Positions 22,013 through 30,210 of a stretch of DNA of 64,000 nt are shown here, in pieces. This stretch comes from Shinella zoogloeoides (GTDB lineage Bacteria > Pseudomonadota > Alphaproteobacteria > Rhizobiales > Rhizobiaceae). A model generated the notes under the pieces. It was not told the DNA's origin, did not search any database, and saw only the letters and a program-made list of their open reading frames with translations. The stretch spans positions 995,501-1,059,500 of the forward strand of contig NZ_CP132311.1 of NCBI RefSeq assembly GCF_030733845.1. Direction: 5' to 3'. The first letter of the stretch is position 1, and each line of letters begins with the position of its first letter. Both the position numbers and the translations under genes were made by a program.

Positions 22013-22057
22013 GCAATTCCAGCACAAGCGCGCAAGCGATTTTGCGTTTGGAATTGC
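22013..22057. repeat. Short dispersed palindromic element, GCAATTCC family
   Basis: Ends GCAATTCC and GGAATTGC are exact complements, 29 bases apart, with an inner hairpin (CGCAA/TTGCG). It begins one base after the rnc stop. A second copy lies at 31502-31545. Elements of this type recur between genes in rhizobial genomes. Confidence 0.7.
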
Positions 22058-22110
22058 GTAAACAAAAGGACGAGGCATTTCGTGGAAATGCTTCAGGATT
22101 GACGGACAAG

Positions 22111-23055
22111 ATGACCGAAGAACAGAACAACCCCGCCGGGAACGGCACGAACGGCGAGGGCCCGACCCATTCGGGCTTCGTGGCGCTCATCGGCGCGACC
22201 AATGCCGGCAAGTCGACGCTGGTCAACCGCCTCGTCGGCGCCAAGGTGTCGATCGTCAGCCACAAGGTGCAGACGACGCGCGCCATCGTGCGCGGCATCG
22301 CCATCCACAACAACGCCCAGATCGTCTTCATGGACACGCCCGGCATCTTCAAGCCGCGCCGCCGGCTCGACCGCGCCATGGTCACGACCGCCTGGGGCGG
22401 TGCCAAGGATGCCGACGTGATCATGTTCCTGATCGACAGCGAGCGCGGCCTTAAGGGCGACGCCGAGACGATCCTGGAGGGCCTGAAGGAGGTCCACCAG
22501 CCGAAGATCCTCGTCCTCAACAAGGTCGATCGGGTGAACCCGGAGGACCTGTTGAAGCTCGCCGCGGCCGCAAACGAGGTCGTCAAGTTCGAGCGCACCT
22601 TCATGATCTCGGCGCTGAACGGTTCGGGCTGCGAGGATGTGCTCGACTATCTCGCCGCGGCGCTGCCCGAGGGACCGTGGTATTATCCGGAAGACCAGAT
22701 TTCCGACCTGCCGATGCGCCAGCTCGCGGCGGAAATCACCCGCGAGAAGCTGTTCCTGCGCCTCCACCAGGAGCTTCCCTATTCCTCGCATGTCGAGACG
22801 GAGCGATGGGAGGAGCGCAAGGACGGCTCCGTGCGCATCGAGCAGGTGATCTATGTCGAGCGCGACAGCCAGAAGAAGATCGCGCTGGGCAAGAACGGCG
22901 ATGCGATCAAGGCCATCTCCATGGCCTCGCGCAAGGAGCTGTCGGAAATCCTCGAACAGCCCGTGCACCTCTTCCTCTTCGTGAAGGTGCGCGAGAACTG
23001 GGGCGACGACCCCGCCCGCTTCCGCGAAATGGGCCTGGATTTCCCGACGTCCTGA
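22111..23055 (+). CDS. era: GTPase Era, 16S rRNA maturation factor
   Basis: GTP-binding protein that binds the 3' end of 16S rRNA and helps 30S assembly. G1 (GATNAGKST), the switch-II motif DTPGIF and G4 NKVD are visible, followed by a C-terminal KH domain (about residues 200-300). 314 residues from the ATG at 22111. A TTG at 22099, three bases after CAGGA, would add LTDK and is a possible true start. It has a hydrophilic N-terminal extension of about 20 residues, typical for rhizobia. recO, which often follows era, is here 9.4 kb away. Confidence 0.95.
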   Translation: MTEEQNNPAGNGTNGEGPTHSGFVALIGATNAGKSTLVNRLVGAKVSIVSHKVQTTRAIVRGIAIHNNAQIVFMDTPGIFKPRRRLDRAMVTTAWGGAKDADVIMFLIDSERGLKGDAETILEGLKEVHQPKILVLNKVDRVNPEDLLKLAAAANEVVKFERTFMISALNGSGCEDVLDYLAAALPEGPWYYPEDQISDLPMRQLAAEITREKLFLRLHQELPYSSHVETERWEERKDGSVRIEQVIYVERDSQKKIALGKNGDAIKAISMASRKELSEILEQPVHLFLFVKVRENWGDDPARFREMGLDFPTS

Positions 23056-23257: not shown

Positions 23258-25621
23258 TCAAGCCCGCGCCCGAAGCTCCAGCGTCTGCGTCATCTCGCGC
23301 GCTTTCTCCATCAGCCGCTGCATCGCCCAGATGCCAAGCTCCTCGATCGGCTGGGGCTTGCAGATGAGATAGCCCTGGTAGAGATCGCAGCCGGCGGCGG
23401 CGAGCAGGGCCATCTTCTCGGTCGTATCGACCCCCTCCGCGATAACGGACATGTCCTGCGCATGGCAGAGCGCGACGAGCGCGCGCAGCGTCGGCAAGGC
23501 GGCCGAGCGGGTCAGGCTTTCGACAAGCTCGCGGTCGAGCTTGATGGTCTCGGCCGGATACTCGATGATCTGCTGCACGGATGTGTAGCCCGCGCCGAAA
23601 TCGTCGATGGAGATGCGGAACCCGCGTGCGCGCAGGATCTCGATGTTGCGGCGCGATTGCTCGCCGAGCTTCACCGCGAAGGTTTCCGTCAGCTCGATCT
23701 CGATCATGCGCGCTTCCACGCCATGCCGGTCGGCACAGGCGCAGAAATGGTCGCTGATCGACTTGGTGTAGAGTTCGGCGGACGAGATGTTGATGCAGAG
23801 GACCGTTTCCGCGCCGAAGAGCTTGCGGATCTGGCCGTACTCCGCCATTGCCCGGTCGATCACCCACCAGTCGATCTTGCTGAACAGGCCCGTCGTCTCG
23901 GCGATGGGGATGAATTCGTCCGGCGTCACGCGGCCGAGCAGGGGGGAGTTCCAGCGCAGCAGCGCCTCGCAGCCCGTCACCTTGCCGTGGCCGTCGACGA
24001 TCGGCATGTAGACGAGGTGGAATTCGTCGTCCGGGTCGAGGATGCGCAATTCCTCCTCGATGCGGCGCTGGCGGTTGCGCTTTTCGTGCAGCGATCGCGA
24101 ATAGCGGGCCGAGCCGTTCTTGCCCTGGGATTTCGCTTGGTACATGGCGGCATCCGCATTGGCGATGAGTTCCGGCAGGTTGCGGGCATCTTCCGGATAG
24201 ACGGCGATGCCGATGCTGGCCGTCACCGGATAGGCCTTGTCCAGCACCTCGAAGCCCTCGGCGAAGAGGTCGAGGATCGCGTTGGAAATCTCGGTGATCG
24301 TGCCGCCGCCCGGCTGGCAGCGCAGCATGATGGCGAACTCGTCGCCGGAAAGGCGGGCGAACAGGCCATGCGGCAGCCCGCGCTCGGCAACGACGCGGTC
24401 GACGATGGCGGAGATGCGGTCGGCCAGCGTCTTCAACAGCTCGTCGCCGATCTTGTGGCCGTGCTTGTCATTGACGAACTTGAAGTTGTCGACGTCGATG
24501 AAGAGCAGGGTGCAGCCGATATCCTCGGCTTCCGCCTCCTCGATGATCTGCGTCGAGCGGATGTTGAAATATTCCCGGTTCGAGATGCCGGTCAGCGTGT
24601 CCGTCCAGGAGGCGTTCTGCACGAGGTCGAAGGACTGCATGGAGTGGTCGTGCAGCCGTTTGACGTTCGCCGAGAGGCGGCCGATCTCGCCGGCCTCGTT
24701 CATTTCCGGCAGCGCGCTGCGGCTGCCGGTCATCACGTCGGTGAGCTGACGGTCGAGGCTGGCGATAGGATTGGTGATGTAGCGGCGCACGAGCAGCAGC
24801 ACGAGGCCGATGGTGAACAGGCTGAGCGCGATCGCGCCGAGCGCCAGCAGCGTCTTTAGCGTGGCGAGCCGGTTGTTGAGGAAAGCGGGATCCGGTGTCA
24901 GGCGGGCGAAGAGGGAAGGGCCGAGCGTCGCGGTCGCCGAAAGCGCGCCCTTCGCCAGGAACTGGTGCTGGCCGATATCGACCGTCGCGCCGTATTCCTT
25001 TTCGAGCGCCCGCTTCATGTCGAGGAAGGCTTTTGGCCGGACAGCCGTCTGCACCAGGATCGCGCCGCCCTTGGCGCTTGCTACCGGGCGGTTGAAGGTG
25101 AGCGGATCGATGAACTCGGAATGCACGATCAACGGCTCGATACCGGCCTCGTCGAGATAGTTCCAGGAGGAGAGCCGGGGGCTCGCGATAACCTGGCGGG
25201 CATGCTCCATCTGCTGCGGGGTGATTTCTGCGAACGGGTCGTCGCTGTCCTCGAAATAGTAATCGACCGTCAGCGGCGGGCGGATGATCGCCACCGAGAT
25301 GAAGCGCTTGCGGTCGTCGGAGAGCGAGGTGATGCTCTGCTGCAGGCGCACGCCGAGCGCGGTGCTGCGGTAGGCCGCGTCGGGCTCGTTGATGAAGAGC
25401 CGGACCGCGCCGCCTTCGACCAGCGAATAGATGAAGCTGCGGTTCTGCGTGACCTCGTTCTGGAAGACGGCGGTCAGGAGGCCCATCTGCTGCCAGAGGC
25501 GCGCGCGCTCCAGCCCGAGGATCGAGGAGCTCTGGACGTAATAGATGAGGGAGGCGGCAAGCACGTAGCCTGCCAGCACGACCGGGAAGATGAGGGCGAG
25601 GGCGCGTTTACCGAGCGTCAC
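23258..25621 (-). CDS. Membrane GGDEF-EAL protein with periplasmic sensor domain and HAMP
   Basis: 787 residues: TM1 (about 7-28), a periplasmic domain (about 30-255), TM2 (about 256-279), HAMP (about 280-330), GGDEF (about 335-500) and EAL (about 515-775). The cyclase signature is SGDEF (425-429) and the I-site RxxD is absent. The EAL domain keeps all expected catalytic residues: EALLRW, NIS, ELTET, DDFGAG, IKLDREL, AEGVD and YQGY. So c-di-GMP hydrolysis is certain to be possible and synthesis plausible. The start is GTG at 25621, inside the last codons of the upstream binding-protein gene, indicating tight translational coupling. The pairing suggests that the binding protein presents a ligand to the periplasmic domain. 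Confidence 0.9.
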   Translation of the reverse strand: MTLGKRALALIFPVVLAGYVLAASLIYYVQSSSILGLERARLWQQMGLLTAVFQNEVTQNRSFIYSLVEGGAVRLFINEPDAAYRSTALGVRLQQSITSLSDDRKRFISVAIIRPPLTVDYYFEDSDDPFAEITPQQMEHARQVIASPRLSSWNYLDEAGIEPLIVHSEFIDPLTFNRPVASAKGGAILVQTAVRPKAFLDMKRALEKEYGATVDIGQHQFLAKGALSATATLGPSLFARLTPDPAFLNNRLATLKTLLALGAIALSLFTIGLVLLLVRRYITNPIASLDRQLTDVMTGSRSALPEMNEAGEIGRLSANVKRLHDHSMQSFDLVQNASWTDTLTGISNREYFNIRSTQIIEEAEAEDIGCTLLFIDVDNFKFVNDKHGHKIGDELLKTLADRISAIVDRVVAERGLPHGLFARLSGDEFAIMLRCQPGGGTITEISNAILDLFAEGFEVLDKAYPVTASIGIAVYPEDARNLPELIANADAAMYQAKSQGKNGSARYSRSLHEKRNRQRRIEEELRILDPDDEFHLVYMPIVDGHGKVTGCEALLRWNSPLLGRVTPDEFIPIAETTGLFSKIDWWVIDRAMAEYGQIRKLFGAETVLCINISSAELYTKSISDHFCACADRHGVEARMIEIELTETFAVKLGEQSRRNIEILRARGFRISIDDFGAGYTSVQQIIEYPAETIKLDRELVESLTRSAALPTLRALVALCHAQDMSVIAEGVDTTEKMALLAAAGCDLYQGYLICKPQPIEELGIWAMQRLMEKAREMTQTLELRARA

Positions 25622-26657
25622 TGAGTTGGGCCAGACTGCTGATGATGCGGCGGCGGGCCTGGACCGATTGCACGGTCAGTTCCTCCTGAAGCTGGCTCTT
25701 GGCCAGGATTTCCGGTGCGGCATAGATTTCGGGATTGGATCGGACGTCCTGCGGCAGCAGCGCCAGGGCGGCGGTGCTCGCGGTCGGCATGTTGAGCGTG
25801 ATGGCGTTGCGCGCGCCGTTCTCGGCACTGCTGATATAGTCGACGAGCTTCAGCGCGAGCTCCTTGTTCTGCGAGCGCTCGCTGACGGCGATGCAGTCGA
25901 GCCAGGAGAGCGTGCCTTCCTTCGGCACGACGTAGCGCCAGAGGCCCGGCGCGGAGACCTTGTCGTTCAGGGTGTACTGGTCGCCGCTGTAGCCGAGCGC
26001 CATGTAAATGTTCGGCCCCTTGTCGGCGCTCTGGACCGAGGTGATGACGTAGTCGTAGGTGAGCACGTAGGGCAGCTGCGCCTTCATCAGCTCGTAGGCT
26101 GCCTTCAGCGTCTCGTTGTCGTTGGCGTTGACGGACTTGCCGAGCAGCACGAGCGGGGCGACGAAGGCCTCGGCGTGGTCGTCGTACATGGCGATATGGC
26201 CGCGCAGGCTCTCAGCCGGTTTCATCATGTCCGCCCAGGAGGTCGGCGGCGTGGTGATCTTGTCGGAGCGGTAGAGGATGCCCATCGTGCCCCAGAGATA
26301 GGGCACGCCATAGCCGCCGCAGCGTGTCGTCCAGCTGTCGGCATAGTCCTTCAGGGCCGGCACGTTTTTCGTGTCGACGGCCATGATGATGCCGCGGTTG
26401 CCGTAGAGCCTGGCGCCGTTCTCGTTGGTCACGACCACATCGACATTGCTGTTGGGGTCGGCGAGAATCTCGTCGCGCGCATCGCCGCTGTCGTAGAAGG
26501 TCTGGCGTACCTCGATGCCGGTCTTGGCCGAGAAATCCTTCAGGATCTGCTCGTCGATGTAGGATTCCCAGATGAGGAGATTGAGCGTCGCCGCGCTTGC
26601 CGGGGCAGCGATGGCGAAGGCCGTCGATGAGACTGCTGCAAGAAATGCGCCGCGCAT
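25608..26657 (-). CDS. Orphan polyamine-type periplasmic substrate-binding protein (PotD/PotF/NspS-like)
   Basis: 349 residues with a signal peptide (about 1-23, ASA-A cleavage) and the fold of spermidine/putrescine-binding proteins: the mature N-terminus LNLLIWESYIDEQILKDF, the hinge segments GVPYLWGTMGILY and the Trp/Asp-rich pocket (SWADMM, LGYSGDQY, SWLDCIAV). No permease or ATPase gene is next to it. Instead its last 14 bases overlap a GGDEF-EAL gene. The start at 26657 gives the signal peptide; a start at 26702 would add 15 residues. Likely a sensory rather than transport binding protein. Ligand identity (polyamine or related) is inferred from family only. Confidence 0.85.
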   Translation of the reverse strand: MRGAFLAAVSSTAFAIAAPASAATLNLLIWESYIDEQILKDFSAKTGIEVRQTFYDSGDARDEILADPNSNVDVVVTNENGARLYGNRGIIMAVDTKNVPALKDYADSWTTRCGGYGVPYLWGTMGILYRSDKITTPPTSWADMMKPAESLRGHIAMYDDHAEAFVAPLVLLGKSVNANDNETLKAAYELMKAQLPYVLTYDYVITSVQSADKGPNIYMALGYSGDQYTLNDKVSAPGLWRYVVPKEGTLSWLDCIAVSERSQNKELALKLVDYISSAENGARNAITLNMPTASTAALALLPQDVRSNPEIYAAPEILAKSQLQEELTVQSVQARRRIISSLAQLSDAR

Positions 26658-26868
26658 GCCGAAGGCCCCGTTATCCCCTATGCCGGACAAGATAGGCGGC
26701 AAGACTTTATGAAGAGTTACAACCGGTAAGCTCCCCTTTTTGTCCGTTCAACCCTGATGCAGCCGTACCGCCGTGCTATCGTGATATATTGTGGACGTGA
26801 CGGTCCTGCGGTTGGCCTTCCGCCGTGCGCTCACTATGGTCGCCCCGCACCATCCAGAGGAGTTCGAC

Positions 26869-29178
26869 ATGGCCCCGACACCGCTCAAGATCGCGAACCT
26901 GATCGCCGCCGAGATAAAGGCGACATCCGCGCAGGTTTCCGCCGCCGTCGGGCTGCTCGACGAGGGCGCGACCGTGCCCTTCATCGCGCGCTACCGCAAG
27001 GAGGTGACCGGCGGGCTCGACGATACGCAGCTTCGCGTTCTGTCCGAGCGGCTGACCTATCTGCGCGAGCTGGAGGCCCGCCGCGCCTCCATCCTCGAAT
27101 CCATCGCGGGGCAGGGCAAGCTGACGGACGAGTTGACGGCCAAGATCGCCGCCGTCACGACGAAGGCCGAGCTGGAGGACATCTACCTGCCCTACAAGCC
27201 GAAGCGCCGCACCAAGGCGGAGATCGCCCGTGAACGCGGCCTCGGCCCGCTGGCCGATGCGATCCTGGCGGACCGCGCACTGGTGCCGGCGGAACTGGCG
27301 GAAAAGTTCATCTCGGCCGAGGTGCCGGACGTGAAGGCCGCGCTGGAAGGCGCGCGCGACATCGTCGCCGAGCAACTGACGGAAAATGCCGATCTCCTGA
27401 AGCGCCTGCGCGAATACATGAAGGACAACGCATACCTCCGCTCCCGCGTAGTCGAGGGCAAGAAGGAGGCCGGCGCCAAGTTCTCCGACTATTTCGACCA
27501 TACCGAGCGCTGGGCGAACGTGCCGGGCCATCGTGCGCTAGCCATGCTGCGCGGCTGGAACGAGGAGTTCCTGTCGGTCGATATCGTCGTCGATCTGGAC
27601 AATACCGAGCCGGTCAAGCCCGTGGAGCGCATCATCGCCTCCTTCTACGCCCTCGGCACGAAGCCGGGTGACAAGTGGCTGGCGGAGGTCATCGGCTGGA
27701 CCTGGCGCGTCAAGCTCTCCATGTCGCTGTCGCTCGACCTGATGCGCGAGATGCGCGAGCGCTCCGAGGAGGAAGCGATCCGCGTCTTCGCGCGCAACCT
27801 CAAGGACCTGCTGCTCGCCGCCCCCGCCGGCACGCGCGCCACGATGGGCCTCGATCCGGGCATCCGCACCGGCGTCAAGGTCGCCGTGGTCGACAATACG
27901 GGCAAGGTGCTGGAGACGACGACGGTCTATCCGTTCCCGCCGAAGAACGACGTGCGCGGCACGCAGGCCGAGCTTGCCAGCCTCATCCGCAAGCACAAGG
28001 TGGAGCTGATCGCCATCGGCAACGGCACCGGCAGCCGCGAGACGGAGAAGCTGGTCGCCGACATGCTGGCGCAGCTCCCCGCGCCAAAACCCACCAAGGT
28101 CATCGTCTCGGAGGCGGGCGCCTCGGTCTATTCCGCCTCGGAAACGGCGGCGGCCGAATTCCCGAACCTCGACGTCTCGCTGCGCGGCGCCGTCTCCATC
28201 GCCCGCCGTCTGCAGGATCCGCTGGCCGAGCTCGTCAAGATCGAGCCGAAGTCGATCGGCGTCGGCCAGTACCAGCATGATGTCGACCAGGGCAAGCTCT
28301 CGCGCTCGCTCGATGCCGTGGTGGAAGACGCGGTGAACGCGGTCGGCGTCGATCTCAACACGGCCTCCGCGCCGCTGCTCGCGCGAGTTTCCGGGCTCGG
28401 AAAGTCGTCGGCCGAGGCGATCGTCGCGCATCGCGACGCCAACGGCCCGTTCGAAAGCCGCAAGGAGCTGATGAAGGTCTCGCGCCTCGGCGCGCGCACC
28501 TTCGAGCAGTGCGCCGGCTTCCTGCGCATCCCGAACGGCAAGGAGCCGCTCGATGCCTCCTCGGTACATCCCGAAGCCTATGGCGTCGCCAAGAAGATCG
28601 TCGCCGCCTGCGGGCGCGATGTGCGCGCGCTGATGGGCGACAGCGCGGCGCTCAAGACGCTCGATCCCAAAATCTTCGTCGACGAGCGCTTCGGCCTGCC
28701 GACCGTCAAGGACATCCTCGCCGAGCTCGAAAAGCCCGGCCGCGACCCGCGCCCGGAATTCAGGACCGCGACCTTTGCCGATGGCGTGGACGACATCAAG
28801 GACCTCAAGGTCGGCATGCTGCTGGAAGGCACGGTGACCAACGTCGCCGCCTTCGGCGCCTTCGTCGATATCGGCGTGCACCAGGACGGCCTCGTGCACG
28901 TCTCCCAGCTCGCCGACCGCTTCGTCAAGGACCCGCACGAAGTGGTGAAGGCCGGCGACGTGGTGAAGGTGCGTGTGACCGAGGTGGACGTGCCGCGCAA
29001 GCGCATCGGCCTCACCATGCGCAAGGACGGCGGCGCGCCCGCCGCCCGCGACAACGCTCCGCGCGGCGACAGGGATGCGCAGATGAAACCCAAGTTCAGC
29101 CAGGCCGCTCCCAAGCAGCAGGCGCCGTCGCAGGGTGCCTTCGGCGCGGCGCTCGCCGAGGCGATGAAGCGGAAGTAA
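26869..29178 (+). CDS. tex: Tex family RNA-binding transcription accessory protein
   Basis: 769-residue protein with the standard Tex order: an N-terminal helical domain, an RNase H-like YqgF fold from about 326 ([17 protein letters not shown]), helix-hairpin-helix motifs near 500 ([19 protein letters not shown]), and a C-terminal S1 RNA-binding domain at about 645-720 ([28 protein letters not shown]). The tail after S1 is a low-complexity Ala/Gln/Lys-rich extension. The ATG at 26869 follows AGAGGAG. It is divergent from the binding-protein gene. The role in transcription or RNA quality control is known only in outline for the family. Confidence 0.95.
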
Positions 29179-29316
29179 GGCCAAATTTTCCTAATGGCTG
29201 CCGGCAGAAATCGTCGTTTGTTTTGACCCACCCGTTTGCGCATAGTCGCGGCATGGGCGGGCTCAACGGGCCGGCGGCGCAATGCGCCGCGGTGTCCGAC
29301 AGACAGGAAAATGCAT

Positions 29317-30210
29317 ATGACGATCACGATTTCACGCCGGCGGGCGATTGCCGGCGCTCTCCTTGCCGTTCCCGCGGTTTCCATGCTCGCCGGCGCCGCG
29401 CGTGCCTCGGGCGGTAGCGGGATGGAAAAGCGGCTGGCCGAACTGGAAGCGCGCCACGAGGGCCGCATCGGCGTTGCCATACATAATCTCGCCACCGGCG
29501 CACGGCTCGGCCACCGCGCGGACGAACGCTTCCTGATGTGCAGCACGTTCAAGGCCCTGCTGGCAGGCCACATCCTCGCCCGCGTGGACCGCGAGGAGGA
29601 AACGCTCGACCGGCGCATCGTCGTGAAGAAATCTGACATCGTCGAGTGGGCGCCGGCCGTCGAAAAGCGTGTGGGCGGCGATGGTATGTCGATCGCCGAA
29701 CTCTGCGAGGCGACGGTCACGCTCAGCGACAACGCCGCCGCCAACCTTCTTCTGGCCGCCTCCGGCGGGCCGAAGGCCGTGACGGAATTCCTGCGCGGCC
29801 TGGGCGATGACGTGACGCGCCTGGACCGCACGGAGCCGGCGCTCAACTATCACGAGACGCCGGACGACGAGCGCGATACGACGACGCCCGTCGCCATGGC
29901 CGAGACGCTGCGTAAGCTGCTCTTTACCGACGCGCTTTCGCCGCGCTCCAAGGCGCAGCTCGCCGCCTGGCTGGTGATGAACAAGACGGGTGATGCCCGC
30001 CTTCGCGCCGGCTTCCCGGCCACATGGATGACGGGCGACAAGACCGGCACGAACGGCGACAAGGCCGGAAACGCCAACGATGTGGCCGTCGCCTAGTCGC
30101 CGGATCGCGGCGCGGTCGTCGTCACCGCCTTTTGCGAAATGCCCGGCATTTCCGGCGACGAGCGCAACGCCGTCATCGCCGAGATCGGCCGCATCGCCGC
30201 CGAGGTCTGA
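29317..30210 (+). pseudogene. Class A beta-lactamase interrupted by an in-frame amber codon
   Basis: The frame begins with a twin-arginine-like signal (ISRRRAIAG) and carries every class A active-site element: Ser76-Thr-Phe-Lys79 (SxxK), Ser137-Asp-Asn139 (SDN), Glu173 in RTEPALN (the omega loop Glu166 equivalent) and Lys242-Thr-Gly. Translation stops at TAG 30094-30096 after 259 residues. The same frame then continues for 37 more codons (SPDRGAVVVTAFCEMPG ... AAEV) to TGA at 30208, matching the last strand and helix of the family, where Trp (TGG) is expected at the stop position. One G-to-A change therefore explains the break. The gene may be inactive or the base may be an error. The start at 29317 has AGGA nine bases upstream. 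Confidence 0.85.

Follow-up and report, generated by a model that had tools for sequence, protein, structure and literature searches.

A stretch of 64,000 nucleotides of the Shinella zoogloeoides genome (contig NZ_CP132311.1, positions 995,501 to 1,059,500 of the forward strand; hereafter referred to as the window) carries two overlapping genes which very probably encode a rhizobial-type NspS-MbaA pair, that is, a system sensing polyamines and controlling the level of cyclic di-GMP (c-di-GMP). Both genes lie on the minus strand. The upstream gene, nspS (25608..26657), is an intact open reading frame (ORF) from an ATG and, by its Pfam match, encodes a periplasmic binding protein of the PotD/PotF type, 349 amino acids in length; a TTG located 45 nt upstream of the ATG is also open, and would be an alternative start. 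The downstream gene, mbaA (23258..25621), is likewise intact, begins with a GTG, and encodes a protein of 787 amino acids, in which a transmembrane (TM) segment, a periplasmic domain and a second TM segment are followed by GGDEF and EAL domains. The 3' end of nspS and the GTG start of mbaA share 14 nt (25608..25621). This arrangement, a PotD-family binding protein overlapping by 14 bases the start of a GGDEF-EAL gene, had been proposed in a first-pass annotation of the window, and both the ORF coordinates and the Pfam matches agree with it.

The window genes are a further member of a kind that has already been published. The NspS-MbaA system of Sinorhizobium meliloti (SMc00991-SMc00992) was reported in 2023, and studied with mutants (PMC9993111). 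In the same study, NspS-MbaA pairs were counted in 222 of 16,076 proteobacterial genomes, a pair being defined as a PotD-like gene directly upstream of the gene for a GGDEF-EAL membrane protein, and either overlapping it or within 20 bp of it; the window genes, with their 14-nt overlap and Pfam assignments, are arranged in this way. The phylogeny in that study names a Shinella clade, and a 13-bp overlap is given for a few Shinella isolates. As a comparison pair I used the adjacent genes of S. meliloti strain Ak57 (CP090106.1). Window NspS is 57% identical to the Ak57 protein over 345 amino acids, and window MbaA 59% identical over 770 amino acids. In a tree of binding proteins, the window and S. 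meliloti NspS fall within one alphaproteobacterial clade of 16 rows (support 99/98), all of which have GGDEF-EAL partners; of the eight paralogues from the same genome that were included, L011 is on a very long branch and the other seven form a cluster (82/98, drawn open). Gene order, overlap, domain pairing, the identity to the S. meliloti proteins and the adjacency kept in other genomes thus support the NspS/MbaA-like design that had been proposed for the window, and together with the shared clade they make the mechanism well founded. This does not extend to its novelty: the statement that no rhizobial example had been described is contradicted by the S. meliloti pair and by the presence of Shinella in the same phylogeny (PMC9993111), and the discovery is therefore modest. 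Two public proteins of the NspS family, among the matches listed, are already named 'polyamine sensor NspS' (P0094 and P0113).

NspS matches the Pfam family SBP_bac_8 (E 7e-32), and its N-terminus, judged by eye, is signal peptide-like (..APASA/ATL). The best sequence match in the PDB is 7xjm, labelled as a putrescine-binding protein (E 5e-32), and a structure model of NspS (pLDDT 92) resembles the PotD and PotF structures. The protein nevertheless misses both NCBIfam equivalog cut-offs, with 108 bits against 582 for PotD and 96 bits against 636 for PotF. Conservation of the pocket was mapped on 304 relatives, a partly redundant sample consisting of ranked search matches and seven picked sequences. 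Residues W30, Y223, D226, W252 and D254 are identical in 293-304 of these, and positions 59, 78, 79 and 121 are variable. In Vibrio cholerae NspS eight ligand residues have been described, all of them conserved in S. meliloti (PMC9993111); if their numbering is carried over to window NspS through the S. meliloti alignment, six of the eight positions are identical.

MbaA matches GGDEF (E 3e-36) and EAL (E 1e-59) in Pfam. Hydropathy analysis gives two TM-like stretches, around residues 3-30 and 252-283, and the periplasmic part therefore spans about 225 residues, the size given in the first-pass annotation. A dCache domain is defined by a long N-terminal helix with PAS-like modules, and the periplasmic sensor domain of MbaA (residues 25-262; 24836..25549, minus strand) fits this fold. 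Pfam dCache_1 gives no match in window MbaA at E 0.001. In the cytosolic portion, the SGDEF motif is found at residue 425 and EALLR at residue 552; like these, residues N611, E643, D673-D674, K694, E729 and Q749, which I take to be catalytic, are common to the S. meliloti MbaA.

The first-pass annotation had proposed looking for conserved pairing in other genomes, and the two genes indeed stay adjacent, most consistently at short range and more weakly across the phylum (24 of 41 binding-protein matches). All 25 loci from the genus and family have an MbaA partner, whose match to window MbaA begins at residue 1 and continues as far as the fetched sequence extends, with an overlap of 14 nt in 22 loci and of 4 nt in three; NspS is present in each of the 20 other Shinella genomes searched. 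Named loci were taken as the best 80 of 93 from a scan of genome contigs. In 77 of these, the downstream protein covers more than 600 residues of window MbaA, and in the remaining three (L113, L114 and L116, from Lamprocystis and Thiodictyon) the downstream ORF has GGDEF and EALLR, with a diverged front. Two Rhizobium loci, L099 and L106, have an nspS that seems frameshifted or devoid of a stop, and in L099 mbaA is also broken; sequencing error and decay are both conceivable, and these loci were retained in the count of 77.

For the family, 151 evenly drawn genomes were searched with NspS (E 1e-70) and with the periplasmic domain of MbaA (E 1e-15). The same 16 genomes hold both (hypergeometric P 7e-22, not corrected for relatedness), and by coordinates all 16 pairs abut; the 16 include two binding-protein matches, G067 and G115, that each have a single TGA within the match. 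Since the two sets coincide exactly, with this P value, and all the pairs abut, the pairing is beyond chance. In a draw of 398 genomes from the phylum, 32 possess NspS, 29 the partner domain and 26 both; there are 24 adjacent pairs, in 22 genomes, six genomes having only the binding protein and three only the domain. Several of the adjacent partners in this draw are kinases. Shinella pollutisoli (L103, L036; G016 C17:22880-23902) possesses another NspS-MbaA pair besides, which has diverged (NspS 45-47% identical) and in which the start is an ATG and the overlap 14 nt; L103 has a further GGDEF-EAL match upstream.

In the mechanism proposed here, NspS would be exported to the periplasm and bind a polyamine, as its family and pocket suggest. 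The liganded or closed form would then dock on MbaA at its dCache-like domain in the periplasm, by analogy with V. cholerae and in keeping with the co-inheritance of the two proteins, and docking would shift the SGDEF/EAL enzyme between synthesis and degradation of c-di-GMP, with effects on biofilm and exopolysaccharide (EPS) like those found in V. cholerae and S. meliloti. In V. cholerae, norspermidine favours c-di-GMP synthesis and spermidine its breakdown (PMC8079147, PMC8967002), and the response to polyamines requires both the SGDEF and the EVL site of MbaA (PMC8079147). With putrescine, spermine or diaminopropane, wild-type S. meliloti 1021 formed less biofilm and EPS, an effect that was strongly reduced or absent in the nspS mutant; norspermidine increased biofilm only 1.2-fold in 1021, compared to 3.2-fold in Rm8530 and 2.2-fold in the Rm8530 mutant (PMC9993111). 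S. meliloti mutants of nspS or mbaA are reported to have more biofilm or EPS (PMC9993111). Because several polyamines lower biofilm and EPS in S. meliloti, with none described as reciprocal in the part of that article used, Shinella MbaA would be expected to be mainly a phosphodiesterase tuned by NspS, and the signal would likely be putrescine or some other common polyamine. By the same analogy, norspermidine alone should not be assumed to be the signal of the rhizobial pair.

The first-pass annotation had also described the binding protein as lacking transporter genes, and this is borne out for permeases. The genome (5.18 Mb scanned) was searched for BPD_transp_1 (PF00528), with 150 of 159 candidates scored; no permease match was found within the window, against at least 141 in the genome, ATPase genes not being part of this search. 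Among the matches listed, the nearest (C2:973516-974025) lies about 45 kb away from the pair, or 47 kb if measured to nspS; with no such match in the 44 kb on either side of the pair, a role of NspS in serving a nearby transporter was ruled out. Eight of the 11 other binding-protein matches of the genome (L002, L004, L005, L007, L008, L010, L011 and L012) have a permease match on the same strand within 2.5 kb, as judged by eye from the coordinates, and the transporters therefore have binding proteins of their own. For L003 a permease match is found about 1.6 kb away on the opposite strand, and for L006 and L009 there is none within 10 kb among the matches listed. In S. meliloti Ak57, no ABC (ATP-binding cassette) permease is found among the 12 annotated features of the stretch around the pair, where one major facilitator superfamily (MFS) transporter adjoins.

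These data bear on whether NspS could be an ordinary polyamine uptake protein that works with a permease from another locus, its proximity to the GGDEF-EAL gene being incidental. NspS does resemble PotD and PotF, and with at least 141 PF00528 matches the genome is rich in ABC permeases; however, the adjacency and co-inheritance with MbaA (16 of 16 in 151 genomes), the absence of a permease match within 44 kb, the PotD score of 108 bits where 582 are required, and the permease matches that 8 of the 11 other binding proteins have close by all speak against it, and I consider this explanation very improbable. A sensor of the same architecture could also respond to another small cation or amine rather than to a polyamine. 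The variable pocket positions (59, 78, 79 and 121) would allow for this, and structure matches include PotD-like folds with other ligands, such as AgtB with agropinic acid; but the aromatic and acidic residues to which polyamine binding is attributed are nearly invariant at five positions, and the S. meliloti phenotypes depend on specific polyamines (PMC9993111), which makes a different ligand improbable. It is conceivable, if somewhat unlikely, that the pair works but that SGDEF is inactive in Shinella, leaving MbaA purely a phosphodiesterase, a variant that is compatible with the best explanation. The replacement of GGDEF by SGDEF fits this, as does the raised biofilm or EPS of the S. meliloti mutants, which would be consistent with loss of a phosphodiesterase (PMC9993111); yet V. 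cholerae MbaA, which has SGDEF too, depends on that site and seems to synthesize c-di-GMP (PMC8079147, PMC8967002).

The assignment of the window genes as a polyamine-sensing NspS-MbaA pair must also be weighed against several observations that do not favour it. In the pocket, position 59, D59 in window NspS, is an Asp in just 193 of the 304 relatives, L121 is replaced by F in S. meliloti, and the position of V. cholerae D90 maps uncertainly to N78/E79. The likeness to V. cholerae is drawn from descriptions and through S. meliloti, and no Vibrio protein is found by name in the contig scan (best 80 of 93) or in the protein searches (best 120 each). Pfam calls no HAMP domain in MbaA at E 0.001; for the S. 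meliloti orthologue a putative HAMP has been reported (PMC9993111). In the phylum draw, 17 of the 41 binding-protein matches have no adjacent partner match, and 9 of the 33 partner-domain matches no adjacent binding-protein match, some of these lying on other contigs. With regard to S. meliloti, that the Ak57 pair is SMc00991-SMc00992 is deduced from name, order and overlap. In the published part of that work used here, no polyamines act reciprocally, unlike in V. cholerae, and since the insertion is expected to abolish mbaA expression as well, the role of NspS alone was not isolated (PMC9993111).

Window NspS has only two cysteines, identified by alignment as Cys113 (codon 26319..26321, minus strand) and Cys255 (codon 25893..25895, minus strand), the latter adjoining the predicted ligand aspartate D254. 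Both are present in 77 of the 80 binding proteins from named loci, the exceptions being the three with a diverged partner. Of the 304 relatives, 255 have both cysteines, one has only the first and, going by column totals, one has only the second; the ten paralogues from the same genome that were aligned (L002-L011) have neither. Near-strict covariation of the two positions was considered, and is weakened by 12 distinct distant binding proteins that possess Cys255 but not Cys113, and in which the WxDC motif is present. A disulfide between Cys113 and Cys255 is plausible, and the two residues may simply be a mark passed down within the clade. The word 'disulfide' is absent from the parts of PMC9993111 and PMC8079147 used, as is 'cystein' from that of PMC9993111, and among the listed matches of a literature search on NspS, disulfide and polyamine, none is about NspS, going by titles and the beginnings of abstracts.

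In other proteobacteria, some NspS-like binding proteins are encoded directly upstream of hybrid kinases with a dCache-HAMP-HisKA-HATPase-REC-REC-Hpt organization, and not of GGDEF-EAL proteins. All four partner genes that were read through (L149:1748-5365, L150:1627-5262, L151:1523-5077 and L152:1521-5036) encode hybrid histidine kinases, and a motif presumed to be the histidine-kinase box follows seven further distant binding proteins. The dCache_1 scores of the kinase partners range from 29 to 47 bits, for a cut-off of 45, and the kinase-coupled binding proteins seen are without Cys113, with a few extra residues at that place. Because these distant relatives of NspS adjoin hybrid histidine kinases, this suggests that a front end composed of binding protein and dCache domain is shared between output types. 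Related pairs of binding proteins and sensor kinases are known in general (PMC11113362); a literature search on polyamine binding proteins with hybrid histidine kinases found none, although this was one narrow query, and weak evidence of absence. Two details are possibly new, namely the two-cysteine signature of the MbaA-coupled binding proteins and the coupling of distant relatives to hybrid histidine kinases.

A broader reading joins these observations, but is rather unlikely to hold. It posits that NspS and the dCache domain form a portable front end with swapped outputs (GGDEF-EAL in the NspS-MbaA branch, HisKA-HATPase-REC-REC-Hpt in the distant proteobacterial relatives), that the cysteine pair, as a mark of the c-di-GMP branch, forms a disulfide near the hinge and could thereby link polyamine sensing to the redox state of the periplasm, and that in rhizobia the main natural signal is not norspermidine but putrescine or another polyamine of plants or the rhizosphere.

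The pair is neighboured by genes at 26860-29178 and 22042-23055, whose domains were identified with Pfam, and which I take to be a tex-like gene and an era-like GTPase gene respectively. A scan for promoters and terminators gave no signal clearly above shuffled sequences, and no site at all on the minus strand. At 29236-30096 (plus strand), an ORF resembles a class A beta-lactamase, with STFK, SDN and KTG as its presumed class A motifs; the frame stops shortly past KTG. Elsewhere in the genome (L154:5306-7521, on C3 at ~296.3-298.5 kb), another binding protein of the NspS superfamily is encoded with a 4-nt overlap to the end of a gene of the peptidyl-arginine deiminase family, presumably agmatine deiminase-like, and has no permease match within 20 kb among the matches listed.

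The presumed route that links polyamines to c-di-GMP through a binding protein is a stable feature of Shinella (all 20 other genomes searched) and patchy across the wider family (16 of 151). The loci gathered here provide a large comparison set for the choice of ligand by NspS and for the communication between NspS and MbaA.

Compared to known systems, the window pair is like NspS-MbaA of V. cholerae in gene order, in overlap (16 bp there), in domain design and in its SGDEF motif (PMC9993111, PMC8079147); it differs in having EAL where V. cholerae MbaA has EVL, and the opposition of norspermidine and spermidine in V. cholerae was not seen in S. meliloti, whose NspS is given as about 32% identical to that of V. 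cholerae. With the S. meliloti system it shares the adjacent, overlapping genes, SGDEF and EAL, and a periplasmic domain of similar length. The overlap is 14 nt in the window and 4 nt in S. meliloti by one way of counting, given as 13 and 3 bp in PMC9993111. L121 of window NspS is F in the S. meliloti protein, and the era-like and tex-like neighbours contrast with an MFS transporter and purD in S. meliloti. In fold and sequence, NspS is similar to the uptake proteins PotD, PotF and SpuD; these serve ABC permeases, unlike NspS, whose gene pair has no permease match closer than 44 kb and which remains below the equivalog cut-offs. LuxP-LuxQ is likewise a binding-protein-dependent receptor, but signals through a histidine kinase and responds to another ligand.

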